Source: Thermoplasmata archaeon (GTDB taxonomy: Archaea; Thermoplasmatota; E2; DHVEG-1; B8-G13). Taken from it: a stretch of DNA of 18,318 nucleotides. A model generated the notes under the pieces. That model had not been told where the DNA came from. It saw nothing but the letters and a program-made list of their open reading frames with translations, and made no database searches. The DNA lies in the NCBI GenBank assembly GCA_021162485.1, contig JAGGYP010000061.1:1-18318 (forward strand), written 5' to 3'. This document shows, piece by piece, positions 1,304 to 18,318 of the stretch (position 1 is the stretch's first letter; every line of letters starts with the position of its first letter). The position numbers were made by a program, and so were the translations under genes.

Positions 1304-3199
1304 CTATTCGTATCCGCCGATTTTAAGCGTTGGATCTCCCAGGAGAACCCATTCTTCAACTGTTTTTCTATCAATCTGGTCCTTATTGCATGGGAAGGTG
1401 TTAACATAGTCTGTTACCGTCTGACCCCATGTTTCACCTAGTATTTCTTTACCCTGCTCACCGTATACTTGGAAGAAATGAGATTCTATCCATCCACCCA
1501 AACCTTCTATACAGTCTGGTATGTCATTGTCATTATAATCTCCAATGAGACCATAACCCAACCCTGTATTACCAATTGTGGCTATTGATCCTCCCCTGAG
1601 ATTTCTGGTTAGCCACCAGCTCCAGCATTCAGGTGTTGGCCCATATGTCCACTCATTTTTTAACCAGTCAAAGGTGCTAACGTTGAACTCGCTGTTGTGA
1701 CATCCACCTACTATGCAAACCGGTAGTTTTTCTCCATTGGAAAGTTTTGGCATGTCGTATACCATTAGACCATTTACCCACTCATGGCTTCCTGGTGCAT
1801 GTGATGCCCATGCTGTCGGACTACCATGACCTGCAAAATATAAGAAACCAGATCCTTGGCTTATAGTGTTGATTACATCATCGGGACCAGTGAATGTTCC
1901 TTCAGATGTATAGAGTTTTACAGCCTCAAACTTGTCAGATACGTATTGATATCCATGCCAAGTCTCTATTTCTCCCTCATAGTATTTTGTTGTCTCATAG
2001 TCATCTGGGAATGTATCACCTGCGACTAGTATTATTTTGTTAAACCAGCTGGGATCAGCCTTTTTGCTTTCATAGTTGATAATCTTGTCAACTATTATCT
2101 TAACTTCGAACTTGTTTCTACAGGCTAGTCTACCAACATACACATCTGGGTAGAGATCCAGTATGTCTTTTTTGAAAGATTTCCACTCTGCATATACGCC
2201 ATTGTCGTTTGAATCCCAATCGTCAAACACTGGTGTACCATCCTCATATTTGTAGATATCTGCAAAGTAGAGATCACTAACATATCCTCCCTCTGCGGTA
2301 TCATCTAGATTAGAATACCTCACTGGGATATACCACAGTCTATCATTCTCATGACCTGGTCCTGCCATTCCCCAGTCTCCAAATAATAGAGATTTCTTAC
2401 CACCCACTAGTAGTACATACTTTATGTTCCATTCTTCTATAGCCTGCTTGATATAGTATTTTAGTTTCTCTGCACCATCTCTTCCTGTTGTGCTAGAATA
2501 TACATCCTCAATTGTAACTAATTTAGTCCTGATACCAAGATTTTCCTTGTGATCCACTAGTCTCTGTAGCTCAGTTGTGAATTTAGAAGGAGCAACTATT
2601 AGTAGATCATACTCATCTGGGAAAGTAATGGGTTTCTTTGAAGGTACAGATGTTATTTTTATGGATATTTCCTCGGCATAATACAACATGTTTTCAGAAG
2701 GAGAATATCTCAATGGGTTTGTTGCTATGGTAAGGTAGAATACTCTGTCCTTGCCATCTAATCCACATCCAATACGATATGTGTACCATGTATCTGGATA
2801 AAGCATGTTGCTTTCATATGTTTCCTTGTTCAGAGTAACTGTTTGCTTAGTTGCTTTTATGGTAGCTCTCTGAACCGGTTGAGGAGCGGGAACAATCTTG
2901 CTGGATAATTCTACTTTTTTAACCTTTGTTGGTGTGCATTCTACACTGGTTATTTTTGTTCCTATTGGGAATTTAAATGTTTTGACATATGTTGGTAGAA
3001 GTGGTTTCCCTGGTTCTCTTATCCAAGAGTTTGCCTCTTTTAGATCAACTGCAACAAAGGAGTCTATTTCTTTGATATTAGGTATCGAAAACCTTACTTT
3101 TTCTATTTTTTCTATTTTGTTCTCTTTTGCAATAGCAACAGCCCCAAAAATGCTGCCTAATAATATTCCTATTGCCAACATCACTAAAATTTTTTTCAT
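1304..3199 (-). CDS. secreted C25 (gingipain-like) cysteine protease, copy 1
   Basis: A 631-residue exported cysteine endopeptidase of the caspase-like clan CD. Residues 1-24 are a signal peptide (MKK, hydrophobic core, AIAKE). Residues about 25-190 look like the C25 pro-region, with KPLLPTYVKT near 65-74. The peptidase domain starts near 196 with EYDLLIVAPSKF. The catalytic dyad is His458 in FAGHG and Cys500 in VGGCHN, both intact. An acidic loop DSNDNG at 329-334 could bind calcium. The protein ends in GDPTLKIGGYE, as many family members do, with no membrane anchor or visible sorting domain, so it is probably released. The start is supported by GGAGG at 3209-3213, 9 bases before the ATG. 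It is a paralogue of the protease at 9871-11685. The expected role is external protein breakdown; cleavage specificity cannot be read from sequence. Confidence 0.9.
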   Translation of the reverse strand: MKKILVMLAIGILLGSIFGAVAIAKENKIEKIEKVRFSIPNIKEIDSFVAVDLKEANSWIREPGKPLLPTYVKTFKFPIGTKITSVECTPTKVKKVELSSKIVPAPQPVQRATIKATKQTVTLNKETYESNMLYPDTWYTYRIGCGLDGKDRVFYLTIATNPLRYSPSENMLYYAEEISIKITSVPSKKPITFPDEYDLLIVAPSKFTTELQRLVDHKENLGIRTKLVTIEDVYSSTTGRDGAEKLKYYIKQAIEEWNIKYVLLVGGKKSLLFGDWGMAGPGHENDRLWYIPVRYSNLDDTAEGGYVSDLYFADIYKYEDGTPVFDDWDSNDNGVYAEWKSFKKDILDLYPDVYVGRLACRNKFEVKIIVDKIINYESKKADPSWFNKIILVAGDTFPDDYETTKYYEGEIETWHGYQYVSDKFEAVKLYTSEGTFTGPDDVINTISQGSGFLYFAGHGSPTAWASHAPGSHEWVNGLMVYDMPKLSNGEKLPVCIVGGCHNSEFNVSTFDWLKNEWTYGPTPECWSWWLTRNLRGGSIATIGNTGLGYGLIGDYNDNDIPDCIEGLGGWIESHFFQVYGEQGKEILGETWGQTVTDYVNTFPCNKDQIDRKTVEEWVLLGDPTLKIGGYE

Positions 3200-9870: not shown

Positions 9871-11685
9871 GTGAAAAAACATAGTATAGAGAAACTAATG
9901 GTTATAACGATCTTTGGCTTGTTCATGTTCTTAAATCTAATAACACCTGCTATAGCAATTGTAAAAACATCCATTGTTAATAGTTATGCGACCACTATCA
10001 AACATATTTGCATAGACAAAAGGTTTGATAAACCAATGGTTAAAAATGTTAACTCTAGATTGCACGTTGAAATAAGAAACATTAATACCTATGTTAAAAA
10101 GGTAAATAAACCATTGCTACCAGTTTATAGAAAAACCTATATCCTTCCTCTGGGAAGCAAAATTTTAGACATTAAATGTAAACACTCTCAAATAAATAGA
10201 ATAAAACTATCAGAAAAAATAGATATTTATAATGGTGGTAAATGGATTAAAACTGGAGAAGATGTTTTTCTTCCAGAGAAGGATACACTTGTTTATCCAA
10301 AAAATTGGTTCAATTACAAGTTAGGTGGAATGATAAAGGAGGGGAAACGTGTAACCATTTTAACACTGGAATTATATCCTGTAAGATACAATTCAAAAGA
10401 AAAATATATTGAATATGTTAATGAGATCAAAATTGATTTCATCTACAAAGAGGGTAGAACTAAAAACACTATTAGCAGTTATGATCTTCTCATAGTCTGC
10501 CCATCTAGCTTTATCTCTTATGCACAAAAGCTTGCGGAACATAAAAATTCACTTGATATAAAAACAAAAATTCTCAGTCTCAAGGAAATATACTCTGACT
10601 ATACAGGTTATGACAATGCAGAGAAGATAAAAGAGGCCATTAGAGAAGAAATCGAGGAAGATGACATAAAATATGTCTTATTGATAGGTAGCATTGATAA
10701 GTTACCTACAAGAGAAACCTGTATAATACAAAAATGGCGGAATCAGTATTGGAATGAAACAATATTATCTGATCTCTACTATGCTGATATCTATGATGCA
10801 AATGGTAGTTTCTGCAGCTGGGATTCAAATGGTAATGGAAAATATGGTGAAAGATTTTATGGTGTAAACGGGGTAAACGATACCGTGGATCTTTATCCAG
10901 ATGTATACGTTGGTAGACTAGCTTGTAAAAATGTATTCGAGGTTAAGACTGTAGTGGATAAAATCATAAATTACGAAAAAAAGGCTAGGAATGGAAATTG
11001 GTTCAAACGTTTACTTGTGATAGGTGGCGATACTTTTCCAGGATGGGGTGTGGTGGAAGGAGAGTTTGTTACAGAAAAAACAATGCAAATATTATCAGAT
11101 TTTAATCCTACCAAACTCTGGGCTTCATTAGGAAATCTCAACGCACTAAATATCCAAAAAGAGTTTAACAAGGGTTATGGTTTTGTTCATTACTCTGGAC
11201 ATGGATTTGAATATGGATTTGCCACGCATCCTATAGGCAGTGATGAATGGATTGGGAATTATTACACCCCTTATGCTGCGGCTTTGTTAAATGGTTATAA
11301 GTTACCTGTTATGTTTTTTGATGCTTGCCTAACTGCAAAGCTTGATTTTAACTCATCAGATCTAAGAGGATACGGCATCCCTATACCATTTGACATAACC
11401 TTTCCATGTTTTGCATGGTTTTTAGTTAAAAAACCCATGGGTGGAGCAATAGCTACTATTGGTGCTACTAGAGTAGCCTTTACCCATGTAAGCTCTACTG
11501 GCGTTCACGCTGGAGCAAGTCGCCTGGCTTTAGACTTCTTTAGCTCCTATCATAATACTACAATGCTTGGTGAAATGTTTGCAGAAGCACAAATTAAATA
11601 TCTAGAAAATGTTGGAAGAGACTATTACACATTAGAGGAATTCATACTATTAGGAGATCCCTCTCTAAAAGTTGGCGGCTATTAA
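9871..11685 (+). CDS. secreted C25 (gingipain-like) cysteine protease, copy 2
   Basis: A 604-residue exported cysteine protease, paralogous to the one at 1304-3199. Residues 1-29 form a signal peptide with a long hydrophobic core ending in PAIAI. The pro-region shares KPLLPVYRKTY (about 80-90) with copy 1. The peptidase domain opens with SYDLLIVCPSSF at about 203-214. The dyad is His444 in YSGHGFE and Cys486 in FFDACLTAK, both intact. An acidic WDSNGNGKYGE loop at about 317-327 mirrors the possible calcium loop of copy 1. The C-terminus is GDPSLKVGGY, again with no anchor. The two copies differ around the catalytic cysteine (GGCHN versus DACLT), so they may cut different bonds. The GTG start follows AGGGGG by 9 bases. 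A tRNA-Asn gene follows. Confidence 0.88.
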   Translation: MKKHSIEKLMVITIFGLFMFLNLITPAIAIVKTSIVNSYATTIKHICIDKRFDKPMVKNVNSRLHVEIRNINTYVKKVNKPLLPVYRKTYILPLGSKILDIKCKHSQINRIKLSEKIDIYNGGKWIKTGEDVFLPEKDTLVYPKNWFNYKLGGMIKEGKRVTILTLELYPVRYNSKEKYIEYVNEIKIDFIYKEGRTKNTISSYDLLIVCPSSFISYAQKLAEHKNSLDIKTKILSLKEIYSDYTGYDNAEKIKEAIREEIEEDDIKYVLLIGSIDKLPTRETCIIQKWRNQYWNETILSDLYYADIYDANGSFCSWDSNGNGKYGERFYGVNGVNDTVDLYPDVYVGRLACKNVFEVKTVVDKIINYEKKARNGNWFKRLLVIGGDTFPGWGVVEGEFVTEKTMQILSDFNPTKLWASLGNLNALNIQKEFNKGYGFVHYSGHGFEYGFATHPIGSDEWIGNYYTPYAAALLNGYKLPVMFFDACLTAKLDFNSSDLRGYGIPIPFDITFPCFAWFLVKKPMGGAIATIGATRVAFTHVSSTGVHAGASRLALDFFSSYHNTTMLGEMFAEAQIKYLENVGRDYYTLEEFILLGDPSLKVGGY

Positions 11686-15242: not shown

Positions 15243-15827
15243 CTATTTGTGATATCTACGTTTGATAAAAATAATGCCTATAGACGCTGCTATGGCAGTT
15301 CCCATTATTATAAAAATCAGAAAGGTTGACTTAAGAGGAAACAGAAGATACTGAGGTGTATCGATATAGGTTCTTATTAGATAACCAACGTTGATATTTT
15401 TTTTCTCCTCTGATTGTATGGAGAGAGCTATCCATGATTCCCAATGTTTATTCAGATTCTCCTCCTGTAATTCCTTGGGAATGTGGAGATGGATGTAGAT
15501 GTTGGCGCTGCTATTACTTGATATGTTAACCTTTTGTGGATGTAACTCCAGCCAGGTTAAATTTTCTATAGGTTCTCTACCTTGGCGGATCAGCTCCAGT
15601 GGTTCAGGGTGTTTAAAATATGCTTTTACCGAGATACTATAGGGGAAACTATTAGTTACTGTTATTTTCTTAGTAGTATTTCCCTCGAAATAACTATTAT
15701 TCATTTTTATATAGATCTCTGCAGGTTCAACACTAACATTCGCACAGGCAAGGTTTGAAAACATTAAAAATATTAAAAATGATGCTAAGCAGAATAGTAA
15801 TTTTATTTTTTTAGCATACAACGCCAT
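15243..15827 (-). CDS. small single-pass surface protein with an Ig-like ectodomain
   Basis: A 194-residue protein with a signal peptide (about 1-28), an external beta-rich domain (about 30-150), one C-terminal membrane helix (about 166-188) and a short basic tail (KRRYHK). The ectodomain pattern, VSVEPAEIYIKM, then KKITVTNSF, then WLELHPQKVNISSNSSANI, then LHIPKEL, is reminiscent of Ig-like chaperone or DUF916-type domains, where a protein is anchored and its beta sandwich faces outward. Several N-x-S/T sites (NVS, NTT, NLT, NIS, NSS) fit N-glycosylation outside an archaeal cell. It has no recognised catalytic motif. It is probably transcribed from its own TATA box, 58 bases after the beta-helix gene, and may be a partner of that protein. 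Confidence 0.6.
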   Translation of the reverse strand: MALYAKKIKLLFCLASFLIFLMFSNLACANVSVEPAEIYIKMNNSYFEGNTTKKITVTNSFPYSISVKAYFKHPEPLELIRQGREPIENLTWLELHPQKVNISSNSSANIYIHLHIPKELQEENLNKHWESWIALSIQSEEKKNINVGYLIRTYIDTPQYLLFPLKSTFLIFIIMGTAIAASIGIIFIKRRYHK

Positions 15828-15885: not shown

Positions 15886-17904
15886 TTATTTAAACATCTC
15901 ATCTACTTTTTTTTCTATCTCCTCTACACTTTCATATGTTTCAGTATCATCTTTTCTAGGATGATATTCTTTCTCTTTAAACCTGGATAGTGGTTCAATA
16001 TTCATGTCCTCTATAACCTTTCTTTCAGTTGTATGTATCAAAGAAGTCTCATGTGGTTCAAATCTTTTATCTTCTAAGATGGGTTTCTCTATCTTCTGCC
16101 CCTCCTCCTTTTTCATATAAAACTCTAATGGTATGAATTCTTCCAATCTCTGTTCTATCTCTTGTCCTTCATCCTTTTTCATTGTGAACATTTTTCTCTT
16201 CTTGATGAAAAATATTATTGCTACAGCAGTTGCTATTATAATCATTGCAGCTAGTATCCATAATATGAGGTTAAGCTCTTTTTGCTCCCCATTATATAGA
16301 ACTAGTTTTTTGTTTTCTAGGTTGTATAGATGATCTATTTTGTCATCATTGTCCATATCCAATAGGTATCCATTTTTCTCCATTTTAGTATCTGTTTTAA
16401 TGTTGTTCTCAGGATCGTAGAATATGTCATATATACTATCGTTGTCTATATCAATTAGGTACATGGTCCCTTTATCTGTAGATATAGGTTCTATCTCGTT
16501 ATTTTGTTTTGGATCTGTCCCTAAGAATTCTTCCTGCGAGTCTAGCAGACCATCGTTGTCATCATCTATATCTATATAGTCTGGTAGGTGATCATTATCA
16601 TTGTCAGTTGGATAGCTATATGGATCATATGGGTCTGTGCCATATTTTTTCTCCTCATTATCTGTCCATTCATCTTTATCAGAGTCCAAGGAGCTGGTGT
16701 CTATAGTGAAGGTATATGTTACATAATCACTCATCTTGTTATCGTTGCTCTCAGCTCTCAAATATAAGGTGTGGTAGCCATCAGAGAGTGGAATAGTTGA
16801 TGTCCAGATGGTCACATTTCCTATAGATGTCTCCATCAAGTTATCTACCTTTATGTAATATGTTTTTATACCGCTATGATGATATGATGGATTCCATGTG
16901 AAGGTTGGGGTGTTATCTGTTATGTTTGACAGTATTTGGATATTTGTAGGCTGAGTGGGTTTATCTGGGATTATTCTACTCATCAGTGGATAGTTGTCTC
17001 TATTCTCTTCAGATATTATATGTGGGGTATCTCCTATTCCATCCTCATTACTGTCTATGCCCTCATAATCATCCCAGTAGTTTCCCTCCATCCCACTGTC
17101 CCATTTGTTCTTGTTTTCATCTACCGCGTCTATATCATTCTTGAAAAAATTGTTATGATAGATTGTATTGTTGTTTGAATTCTGCCAGATATAGATCCCT
17201 CTATAGTTGCCGTAGATGTTGCAATCTGAAATCAGATTGTTGTTGGAGTTTATTCTTAGGTCTATGCCAACTTCGTTGTTAAAAACATTACAATTGACTA
17301 TCCGATTGTTTCTAGACGATAGAAGTGCTAAGATACCAACACTGCAACCATATATGTTACAGTTAGATATCACATTGTCTAATCCCTGTATTTTTACTCC
17401 AATACCTGAAGAGTGATCATTAGCGATTATACAATCAGATACTATTGTATAGGATGCTTGTATATAGATACCTACTCCGTTAATAGGTACATCTATATAG
17501 CTACTATAGATTTTGCATCTTATACTCTCAGATGAGACTTTTATCGTATAATCATATGCGTTTACTAATTTCAGATTTCTTATCTCAACATATGAAGAAT
17601 CTATTAATATTCCTTCTCTGCCTTTGAAGTTTATTATTGTGGTCTCGGAATTATCACCAAGTAGTATTAATTTTTTATCAATTGTAAGATTAGACTCTAT
17701 ATATACCCCGCTTTTTACTCTGATAGTATCCATGGATGTCGCATTTTCCACAGCTGCCTTTATACTTGTGTAGTCGCCACTGCCATTTATATCCACTATC
17801 AAGGTTTTACTGTATACCGGAGGAACAGAGGAAACATGTTGTACAATAGGCAACAAGATGAGAATCAGGAGGGTAAACATTGTAAAAACTCTACGTGGCC
17901 TCAT
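15886..17904 (-). CDS. large beta-helix (NosD-like) surface protein with Ca-binding repeats, one membrane helix and a cytoplasmic tail
   Basis: A 672-residue surface protein. Residues 1-27 are a signal peptide. Residues about 35-265 form a right-handed parallel beta helix with many N-rich PbH1 turns (SNCNIYG, VNCNVFNN, SDCNIYGN). It ends in the hallmark GNYWDDYEGIDSNEDGIGD (274-292) and DNYPLM. An Ig/FN3-like domain spans about 315-402. Residues 406-465 hold thrombospondin-type-3-like acidic repeats such as IDIDDDNDGLLD (444-455), likely to bind calcium. Further acidic repeats (DIDNDSIYD, DMDNDDKID) follow. One membrane helix (545-567) leads to a charged tail of about 105 residues inside the cell. 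GGAGG lies 4 bases before ATG. The start overlaps the RHH gene's stop (ATGA), which means coupled translation. Function is unknown; surface layer, adhesion or sugar binding are options. Confidence 0.85.
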   Translation of the reverse strand: MRPRRVFTMFTLLILILLPIVQHVSSVPPVYSKTLIVDINGSGDYTSIKAAVENATSMDTIRVKSGVYIESNLTIDKKLILLGDNSETTIINFKGREGILIDSSYVEIRNLKLVNAYDYTIKVSSESIRCKIYSSYIDVPINGVGIYIQASYTIVSDCIIANDHSSGIGVKIQGLDNVISNCNIYGCSVGILALLSSRNNRIVNCNVFNNEVGIDLRINSNNNLISDCNIYGNYRGIYIWQNSNNNTIYHNNFFKNDIDAVDENKNKWDSGMEGNYWDDYEGIDSNEDGIGDTPHIISEENRDNYPLMSRIIPDKPTQPTNIQILSNITDNTPTFTWNPSYHHSGIKTYYIKVDNLMETSIGNVTIWTSTIPLSDGYHTLYLRAESNDNKMSDYVTYTFTIDTSSLDSDKDEWTDNEEKKYGTDPYDPYSYPTDNDNDHLPDYIDIDDDNDGLLDSQEEFLGTDPKQNNEIEPISTDKGTMYLIDIDNDSIYDIFYDPENNIKTDTKMEKNGYLLDMDNDDKIDHLYNLENKKLVLYNGEQKELNLILWILAAMIIIATAVAIIFFIKKRKMFTMKKDEGQEIEQRLEEFIPLEFYMKKEEGQKIEKPILEDKRFEPHETSLIHTTERKVIEDMNIEPLSRFKEKEYHPRKDDTETYESVEEIEKKVDEMFK
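16087..16182 (-). repeat. duplicated 10-residue unit in the cytoplasmic tail of the beta-helix protein
   Basis: Two 30-base segments (16087-16116 and 16153-16182), 66 bases apart, match at 24 of 30 positions. They encode MKKEEGQKIE and MKKDEGQEIE, identical at 8 of 10 residues. They lie directly after the membrane helix and suggest an internal duplication of a tail module that may bind something inside the cell. Confidence 0.7.
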
Positions 17905-18083
17905 CTTTCCTCCCCTCCTTCCTTATCTGTGATTTTTAACAGGCCACGCTCTGCTAGATAAATGAGAACCATGTTCTTGACTACTTCTGACTCTGAGTTT
18001 CCCAGTTTACCAATCTGTTTTTTGATTATCTTACGTATAACTGGTGGAAAACTCACTGGAAAACGTGATGAACCCTGATTCAT
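17901..18083 (-). CDS. small ribbon-helix-helix (CopG/Arc-type) DNA-binding protein
   Basis: A 60-residue protein that looks like a bare ribbon-helix-helix regulator. A short strand SRFPVSFPPV (about 6-15) is followed by helix IRKIIKKQIGKLG, the turn GNSESEV, and helix VVKNMVLIYLAERGLL. RHH proteins act as dimers whose paired strands sit in the DNA major groove. Its promoter carries half-sites matched to such a protein, with one group between TATA box and start codon, so self-repression is likely. No Shine-Dalgarno precedes the ATG, and the TATA box is about 27 bp upstream, so the message is probably leaderless. The last codons, encoding EGGEER, contain the GGAGG used by the next gene, and the stop TGA overlaps its ATG. 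An antitoxin role was considered, but no small toxin gene is beside it. Confidence 0.72.
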   Translation of the reverse strand: MNQGSSRFPVSFPPVIRKIIKKQIGKLGNSESEVVKNMVLIYLAERGLLKITDKEGGEER

Positions 18084-18117
18084 TTTAGATTCAAATATGA
18101 ATCACAATATTAAAAAT
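18077..18117 (-). promoter_or_regulatory. RHH promoter with overlapping operator (group 1)
   Basis: On the minus strand TTTAATATT (18106-18114) fits a TATA box about 27 bp from the start codon at 18083. Half-sites GATTC at 18077 and 18088 and GAATC at 18099 are each 11 bp apart. The latter two form the near-palindrome GATTCAAATATGAATC (18088-18103). The operator therefore fills the space between TATA box and start codon, and the 18077 half-site runs into the first codons. Binding there would block polymerase. Confidence 0.6.
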
Positions 18118-18221
18118 TTTTCTATATTTTGCACATCCTGCAATTATTAAATTATATCCACCCAGATACTCTTGATTTTAAAATGTTTTTTAACATATTA
18201 GAAGTAATTAAATTCCATTTT
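18104..18221. other. AT-rich spacer between operator groups
   Basis: Apart from the RHH TATA box at its left end, I see no gene, RNA or repeat here. The composition is very AT-rich and could favour looping between the two operator groups. Confidence 0.4.
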
Positions 18222-18285
18222 GATTCATATTAGAATTAGTATGATCCAAATTAAATATGATTCAAATTTGAATCATATAAGAATC
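18222..18285. promoter_or_regulatory. distal operator cluster (group 2) with a perfect 24-bp palindrome
   Basis: Half-sites GATTC at 18222, GAATT (one mismatch) at 18233, GATCC (one mismatch) at 18243, GATTC at 18259, GAATC at 18270 and GAATC at 18281. Bases 18255-18278 are a perfect palindrome, with core GATTCAAATTTGAATC at 18259-18274. Within each group the spacing is 11 bp (18222/18233 and 18259/18270/18281), the same as in the operator beside the RHH gene. This is probably a binding array for that regulator. Confidence 0.6.
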
Positions 18286-18318
18286 ATTATATAAAAATAT
18301 ATGAAAACAGGGTTAAAA
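18273..18318 (+). promoter_or_regulatory. possible rightward promoter and gene start at the window edge
   Basis: TCATATAAGA (18273-18282) lies about 24 bp before ATG 18301, which would suit a leaderless gene beginning MKTGLK and leaving the window. A second TATA-like box, ATTATATAAAAATAT (18286-18300), could instead start a message further right. Either promoter would overlap or adjoin the distal operator cluster. Only six codons are visible, so the gene itself is not established. Confidence 0.25.

Follow-up and report, generated by a model that had tools for sequence, protein, structure and literature searches.

A phased array of palindromic sites in the promoter of a putative autorepressor gene coupled to a beta-helix surface protein in Thermoplasmata archaea

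Introduction

Which protein binds a row of GATTC/GAATC words set 11 bp apart in front of a small archaeal gene, and what does its binding control? The question is raised by one end of a contig from a Thermoplasmata archaeon (JAGGYP010000061.1, assembly GCA_021162485.1), which we analysed over its complete length of 18,318 bases (the window). The array sits at the contig end, with position 18318 as the last base, and the source genome assembly comprises 761 kb at about 60% completeness. The array precedes an open reading frame on the minus strand (17901..18083; found in 16 of 52 genomes of the order) for a 60-residue ribbon-helix-helix (RHH)-like regulator, a putative autorepressor. On the same strand follows a gene (15886..17904) for a 672-residue NosD-type beta-helix protein, which was assigned by Pfam and, judging its N-terminus by eye, is apparently secreted. 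To our knowledge, readable operators are known for few chromosomal autorepressors of uncultured archaea.

Results

The window carries a phased array of GANTC sites

The initial annotation had listed eight GATTC/GAATC sites in 11-bp phase, of which seven are exact. Three of these form a proximal group: site 1 (18099..18103), which adjoins a TATA-like element, site 2 (18088..18092) and site 3 (18077..18081). The TATA-like element of the regulator promoter, TTTTAATA, is predicted at 18108..18115 on the minus strand, where it aligns with TATTTAAATA/TTTATAAATA in the relatives; the script used for such calls returns some best match every time, and the element of the window is weak. The proximal group had been placed between the TATA box and the start codon, which holds for two sites, whereas the third shares one base with the ATG. 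In the middle group, the site at 18222..18226 is exact, whereas the one at 18233..18237, earlier claimed as exact, reads GAATT and is one base off. This degenerate site and an AATTC at 18211..18215 both lie in the 11-bp register with one mismatch each and flank the 18222 site. The distal group consists of three exact sites (18259..18263, 18270..18274 and 18281..18285). The 24-bp palindrome at 18255..18278 is perfect, as had been stated, and is made by two neighbouring palindromic sites.

Within 18060-18318, GATTC/GAATC occurs 7 times compared to a mean of 0.73 in dinucleotide shuffles (maximum 5 in 5000), and exact 11-bp pairs occur 4 times compared to a mean of 0.0012 (maximum 1 in 5000). The pattern GAWTCN6GAWTC is found 4 times in the whole window, every time in the array, at an expectation of 0.10, and GANTC triples at 11-bp steps are found twice compared to none in 200 shuffles. 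All these figures are flattered, as the motif was picked post hoc, and it is the relatives described below that provide independent confirmation. The phased array is real, and its 11-bp phasing is far above chance.

A second copy of the proximal unit, consisting of three sites and a TATA-like run, is located at 18258..18297 (78% identity over 40 nt). The direct repeat formed by 18076-18115 and 18258-18297 reaches a local alignment score of 37, while the best of 300 base shuffles reached 34, and the far group of the window may be a duplicated promoter unit. A decayed regulator copy in the gap is not supported, its score being matched by 32 of 300 shuffles. A search for an RNA element at 17800-18318 gave no Rfam match.

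Spacing and promoter geometry are conserved in close relatives

A protein search across the 52 genomes of the order returned 17 matches at E<=0.1, and 16 of them, own genome included, had E<1e-16. The remaining match in G018 (E 0.09, within a 782-aa ORF) was discarded from the carrier set. For the analysis of promoters, one per genome was used, leaving out the second tandem copy in G030 (L007), which is without its own promoter. The 11-bp spacing, on whose conservation beside the gene the initial annotation had staked its reading, is kept where the gene is kept: all 15 relatives have at least one exact GANTC pair, with L015 and L017 carrying a single one each. Together, the 16 promoters hold 95 GANTC sites (14.3 in shuffles) and 43 GANTC pairs at exactly 11 bp (0.037 in shuffles, maximum 2 in 1000), and 11 bp is the sole GANTC pair spacing below 22 bp. 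In 80 kb from six neighbourhoods outside the array, one 11-bp pair was found among 231 GANTC.

A matrix built from 86 in-phase sites reads T-GANTC-A plus an alternating AT spacer and correlates at 0.96 with its own reverse complement. The words had been described as half-sites, but with this self-complementarity each is a complete palindrome, TGANTCA. As the sites are full palindromes, one dimer per site appears likelier.

In the aligned promoters, the TATA-like element lies directly upstream of the first proximal site, and the start codon follows this site at 20 bp in 10 of 16 promoters and at 33-34 bp in five. In the sixteenth, that of G010, the ATG of a diverged first regulator copy is located 21 bp past the first proximal site. 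Where the ATG is placed 13-14 bp further out, the sites keep their place relative to the TATA element, which argues that they are part of the promoter. Of 60 distances from distal to proximal sites in the 15 relatives, 55 equal 1 or 2 mod 11, and the nearest distal site stands 24 bp (six relatives), 34 bp (five), 45 bp (three) or 56 bp (one) away. The gap thus consists of 24 bp holding the TATA element plus about whole helical turns, and a single 11-bp lattice runs on both sides. The window is the exception, with its nearest upstream site 123 bp away and in a different helical phase. Proximal sites were assigned by hand for this geometry (the first one in L015 reads GATGC); sites within a genome are non-independent and the genomes share ancestry, and the geometry is hence given without a p-value.

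Two further features were observed in these promoters. In 8 of 15 relatives (e.g. L008, L009, L010, L014 and L016), the word CTCCTTA directly precedes the first distal site, and CTCC does so in 12 of 15; CTCCTTA is absent from the 33 bases that the window has there. In L009, L010, L014 and L017 (and L006), the distance from promoter to start codon is 13-14 bp greater, and in L010, L014 and L017 a two-codon ORF occupies the old start position, which suggests that a leaderless start gave way to leadered translation.

The array is nearly confined to the regulator promoter

The initial annotation had proposed a genome-wide search for the paired pattern. With a spacer-aware version of it, 37 of 40 places in the 16 carriers turned out to be the regulator locus, while the reversed control gave 1 place in the carriers; in the 36 non-carrier genomes, 9 lone pair places were found, distributed over 6 genomes. 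Exact GANTC triples occur at 14 places in the 52 genomes (3 for the reversed control); 12 of these belong to the regulator locus and are spread over 10 of 16 carriers. Accordingly, the paired or triple array is close to private to the regulator promoter. As it is near-unique per genome, the regulator gene appears to target itself. Among places with the paired pattern, a second target elsewhere was considered and rejected: the three off-locus pairs in carriers and the nine in non-carriers are all lone pairs. Four off-locus pairs were inspected, three of which lie within long ORFs and one (in G022) sits at the end of a 92-codon ORF.

The regulator has an RHH-like sequence and is coupled to NosD

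By eye, the regulator follows an RHH-like sequence pattern (RFPVxF, helix, GNS, helix). Neither Pfam nor NCBIfam has a match for the window protein, and none of the 15 close members matches an RHH family in either collection. Profile searches against the PDB returned no RHH chain; one gave a chance-level hit to a dehydrogenase (E 0.68), the second none. An AF2 model from three sequences (pLDDT 63) has helices at residues 14-24 and 31-45 and leaves the strand region unmodelled; with this model, Foldseek found nothing significant. Matches below the cut-off conflict: five of the 15 close members touch LexA_DNA_bind (best value 0.069), which is a different fold, whereas one distant relative touches ParG (0.043; a ParG-like partition protein is the subject of PMC3346939), RHH_1 (0.11) and DUF6290 (within 0.04-0.11). 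Since neither a curated profile nor the sequence of a solved structure places the protein in the RHH (Arc/MetJ/CopG) superfamily, we use RHH-like as a description and make no claim to membership; an RHH fold is treated as likely. The window protein has no match in PADLOC or PHROGs, and PHROGs gave weak, mostly functionless matches to its relatives. No relative was found among viral contigs, nor among plasmids in a DNA search, that would point to a viral or plasmid origin.

In Pfam, the gene downstream matches NosD at 2.2e-16 and Beta_helix at 9.1e-16, and in each of the 15 genomes where the junction between the two genes is visible, they overlap by ATGA. Orthologues of the NosD-type protein (E<=1e-60) are present in the 16 regulator carriers and also in G001, where the match begins at contig base 46 and the upstream part is missing. 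In G013, only the C-terminal half of NosD matches, on another contig, and in G041 the gene extends into masked sequence. With the regulator present in 2 of 11 high-completeness genomes of the order, the regulator-NosD unit is accessory. Tandem regulator copies following one promoter array were seen in G013 (three; L012/L022, G013:C29) and in G030 (two; L007/L021, G030:C94). In G010, the strongly diverged first copy (L004, G010:C133:9937-10104, E 3.3e-8) separates the array from the intact copy.

Distant relatives favour 11-bp repeats with other words

Family profiles reach beyond the carriers to genomes of the same order, class and phylum, and a reverse search recovers the window protein at 1.1e-10. 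Nine distant genes, drawn from seven genomes, have upstream regions with a total of 20 5-mer matches at 11 bp, where shuffles give 3.6 (no more than 12 in any of 1000), and such matches are found in 8 of 9 genes compared to 2.5 in shuffles; these nine promoters had been inspected before the pooled test, and the fresh test consists of two later genes, L142 and L144. This test was split, with L142 (G023:C72) in favour and L144 (G028:C83) showing no array. On the minus strand upstream of L142, five ATACTA words follow each other at exactly 11 bp and run into the ATG. All eleven distant relatives together have 45 matches at 11 bp and 26 at 22 bp, and no other spacing from 6 to 30 bp exceeds 13, with L142 alone contributing 23 of the 45. 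Taken singly, four of the eleven are convincing (L142, L057, L060 and L126, whose counts were reached by 0, 1, 3 and 7 of 500 shuffles, respectively), and seven are without a convincing 11-bp signal, L061 showing none at all. The set is not fully independent, as one genome contributes two similar paralogs, L058 and L065; L129 and L130 (weak hits, upstream region unread) and L128 (no clear ORF) were left out. Upstream of L060, four ATATC/GATAT words stand at 0, 11, 22 and 33 bp before the ATG, and for this gene alone a repeat count at least as high at some spacing from 6 to 29 bp was reached in 102 of 1000 shuffles. G023 carries two paralogs that differ in their words but share the 11-bp step. 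As a group, the distant relatives favour 11-bp repeats with other words.

The gene next to the distant regulator encodes a DNA methyltransferase in seven of eight cases tested (L057, L058, L059, L060, L061, L065 and L066), a count by HMM that excludes L126, L127 and L144. The eighth neighbour, after L142, has no Pfam match but matches the DarG model in PADLOC, and is followed by a gene for a PIN-domain protein. Such loci of an RHH-like gene and a methyltransferase gene may represent a non-HTH controller class of archaeal restriction-modification systems. A literature search over titles and the first parts of abstracts, with few subscription journals included, gave among the matches listed neither RHH controllers of archaeal restriction-modification operons nor a NosD-coupled regulator family. 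Tentatively, the close and distant members could be read jointly as an RHH-like clan of autoregulators with a private word for each member, paralogs within a genome included, repeated through the member's core promoter at an 11-bp step set by the protein; its distant members would control methyltransferase (restriction-modification) operons as a non-HTH counterpart of C proteins, and one branch would have come to control how much of a surface protein is made; we find this conceivable, if somewhat short of probable.

An autorepression model and its alternatives

These features make it probable that the array is the operator of a cooperatively autorepressed two-gene unit, which encodes the RHH-like protein and the coupled beta-helix surface protein. 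We infer the RHH fold, binding as dimers, cooperativity, a leaderless start and repression from sequence features. Each 11-bp repeat would present one palindromic TGANTCA to one protein dimer, and neighbouring dimers, about one helical turn apart, would bind cooperatively. The sites directly downstream of the TATA element would cover the stretch to the (probably leaderless) start, and the upstream group in the same register would nucleate and extend the row of dimers. With abundant protein, this row would occlude TFB/RNA polymerase and switch transcription off, and a falling protein level would reopen the promoter. The ATGA overlap would couple the output of surface protein to this feedback. 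Self-repression, already suggested by the initial annotation, is the best reading because the array is near-private genome-wide and the proximal sites lie between the TATA element and the start.

As a variant of this model, the protein may regulate in both directions, with activation from the distal sites at low concentration and repression from the proximal sites at high concentration. AvtR, for which PMC5569661 describes this very division between distal and proximal sites, provides a precedent, and the two site groups flanking the TATA element in fixed register would suit it. The phase could, however, serve repression alone, and we regard dual regulation as unlikely, though deserving of attention.

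It is less probable still that a different transcription factor binds the array and regulates the operon, with the small protein doing something else. Array, regulator and NosD co-occur wherever the junction is visible, for which reason co-occurrence alone cannot name the binder, and another protein could bind. Nevertheless, a near-single-target array beside a small gene of DNA-binding-like appearance is the usual mark of autoregulation. In addition, some distant paralogs hold the 11-bp spacing and change the word, as if the adjacent protein set both.

The separation of two site groups in the window had led to the proposal of a looping operator bridged across about 118 bp. This does not carry over to the 15 relatives, in which 24-56 bp separate the proximal group from the nearest upstream site at nearly constant phase, while the window has its 123 bp in another phase and a far group that resembles a duplicated promoter unit; we therefore consider looping very improbable.

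GANTC is also the specificity of HinfI/CcrM-type enzymes, and the free middle base of the core and the methyltransferases following the distant relatives might suggest an array that senses or protects the methylation state, but the conserved flanks and strict 11-bp spacing go beyond a methylase site and the distant relatives use non-GANTC words, which leaves this reading with hardly any likelihood.

Discussion

Known small regulators share individual traits with the probable autorepressor unit described here. SvtR, AvtR and F55 of archaeal viruses belong to the small RHH proteins and repress the promoters of their own genes, with distal high-affinity sites and oligomerisation towards BRE/TATA, and F55 binds tandem repeats with the 11-letter consensus ATAGATAGAGT (PMC5569661). 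By analogy, this spreading model fits the promoter anatomy in the window, and repeated sites near TATA and start in the own promoter, as in SvtR/AvtR-type regulation, are found in all 16 promoters. In contrast to these viral, multi-target regulators, the present unit is a chromosomal operon with a near-single target; its words are palindromic, rigidly spaced by 11 bp and placed on both sides of the TATA element, and a PDB search with its profile retrieved no RHH structure.

Among chromosomal regulators, CdrS of Haloferax volcanii is a small RHH-annotated protein encoded immediately upstream of ftsZ2 and is described as a global regulator with 18 ChIP sites (PMC8406309). The regulator analysed here likewise lies immediately upstream of a partner gene that travels with it, but its array is near-unique per genome and the partner is of a surface type, which sets the locus apart from CdrS-ftsZ2. 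The C proteins of type II restriction-modification systems are HTH activator/repressors, and Omega of the epsilon-zeta system is an RHH repressor that binds repeats in its own promoter cooperatively (PMC3874152). As in these systems, a small autoregulator gene precedes the regulated gene, and the distant relatives precede DNA methyltransferase genes; unlike for type II C proteins, the partner in the window is a NosD beta-helix protein and no methyltransferase.

With regard to phasing, RHH dimers of RelB bind on one DNA face, and insertion of 2 or 10 nt between the half-sites abolishes repression, which illustrates how tightly an RHH operator is tied to its spacing; RelB is an antitoxin with a toxin as co-repressor, and its four 6-bp repeats form one bipartite operator (PMC2812701). 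An RHH protein beside DNA modification is already known from DndE of phosphorothioate systems, some of which include cytosine methylases, but the two RHH domains of DndE belong to a scanning machinery (PMC10853773). The side-by-side arrangement of dimers at fixed spacing that we propose resembles Arc and MetJ, although PDB profile searches and Pfam revealed no sequence relationship to them. In Arc the half-sites are spaced by 11 bp, while MetJ binds 8-bp boxes, with dimers side by side at fixed spacing in both.

New here are the rigid palindromic 11-bp lattice flanking the TATA element, the surface-protein partner and the distant relatives that change the word. The locus offers a testable operator grammar, composed of a palindromic word, an 11-bp step and a TATA gap that changes by helical turns, and the words of the paralogs could form a set of orthogonal archaeal operators. 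A transition from restriction-modification-style controllers to a surface-protein switch would suggest a route by which regulators of defence systems are recruited.

Further genes were recorded around the NosD partner. Downstream of NosD, the window encodes a 194-aa protein on the minus strand (ORF at 15243..15827; Cep192_D6 below the cut-off), and a gene of about 200 aa resembling it follows NosD in five of six neighbourhoods, as judged by eye. Upstream, the neighbourhoods read carry secreted-looking genes of about 180 and 200 aa (by eye), and the upstream gene in L075 encodes a PKD-domain protein according to Pfam. On the contig of the window itself, two gingipain-like C25 peptidases are encoded at 1304-3199 on the minus and at 9871-11685 on the plus strand.
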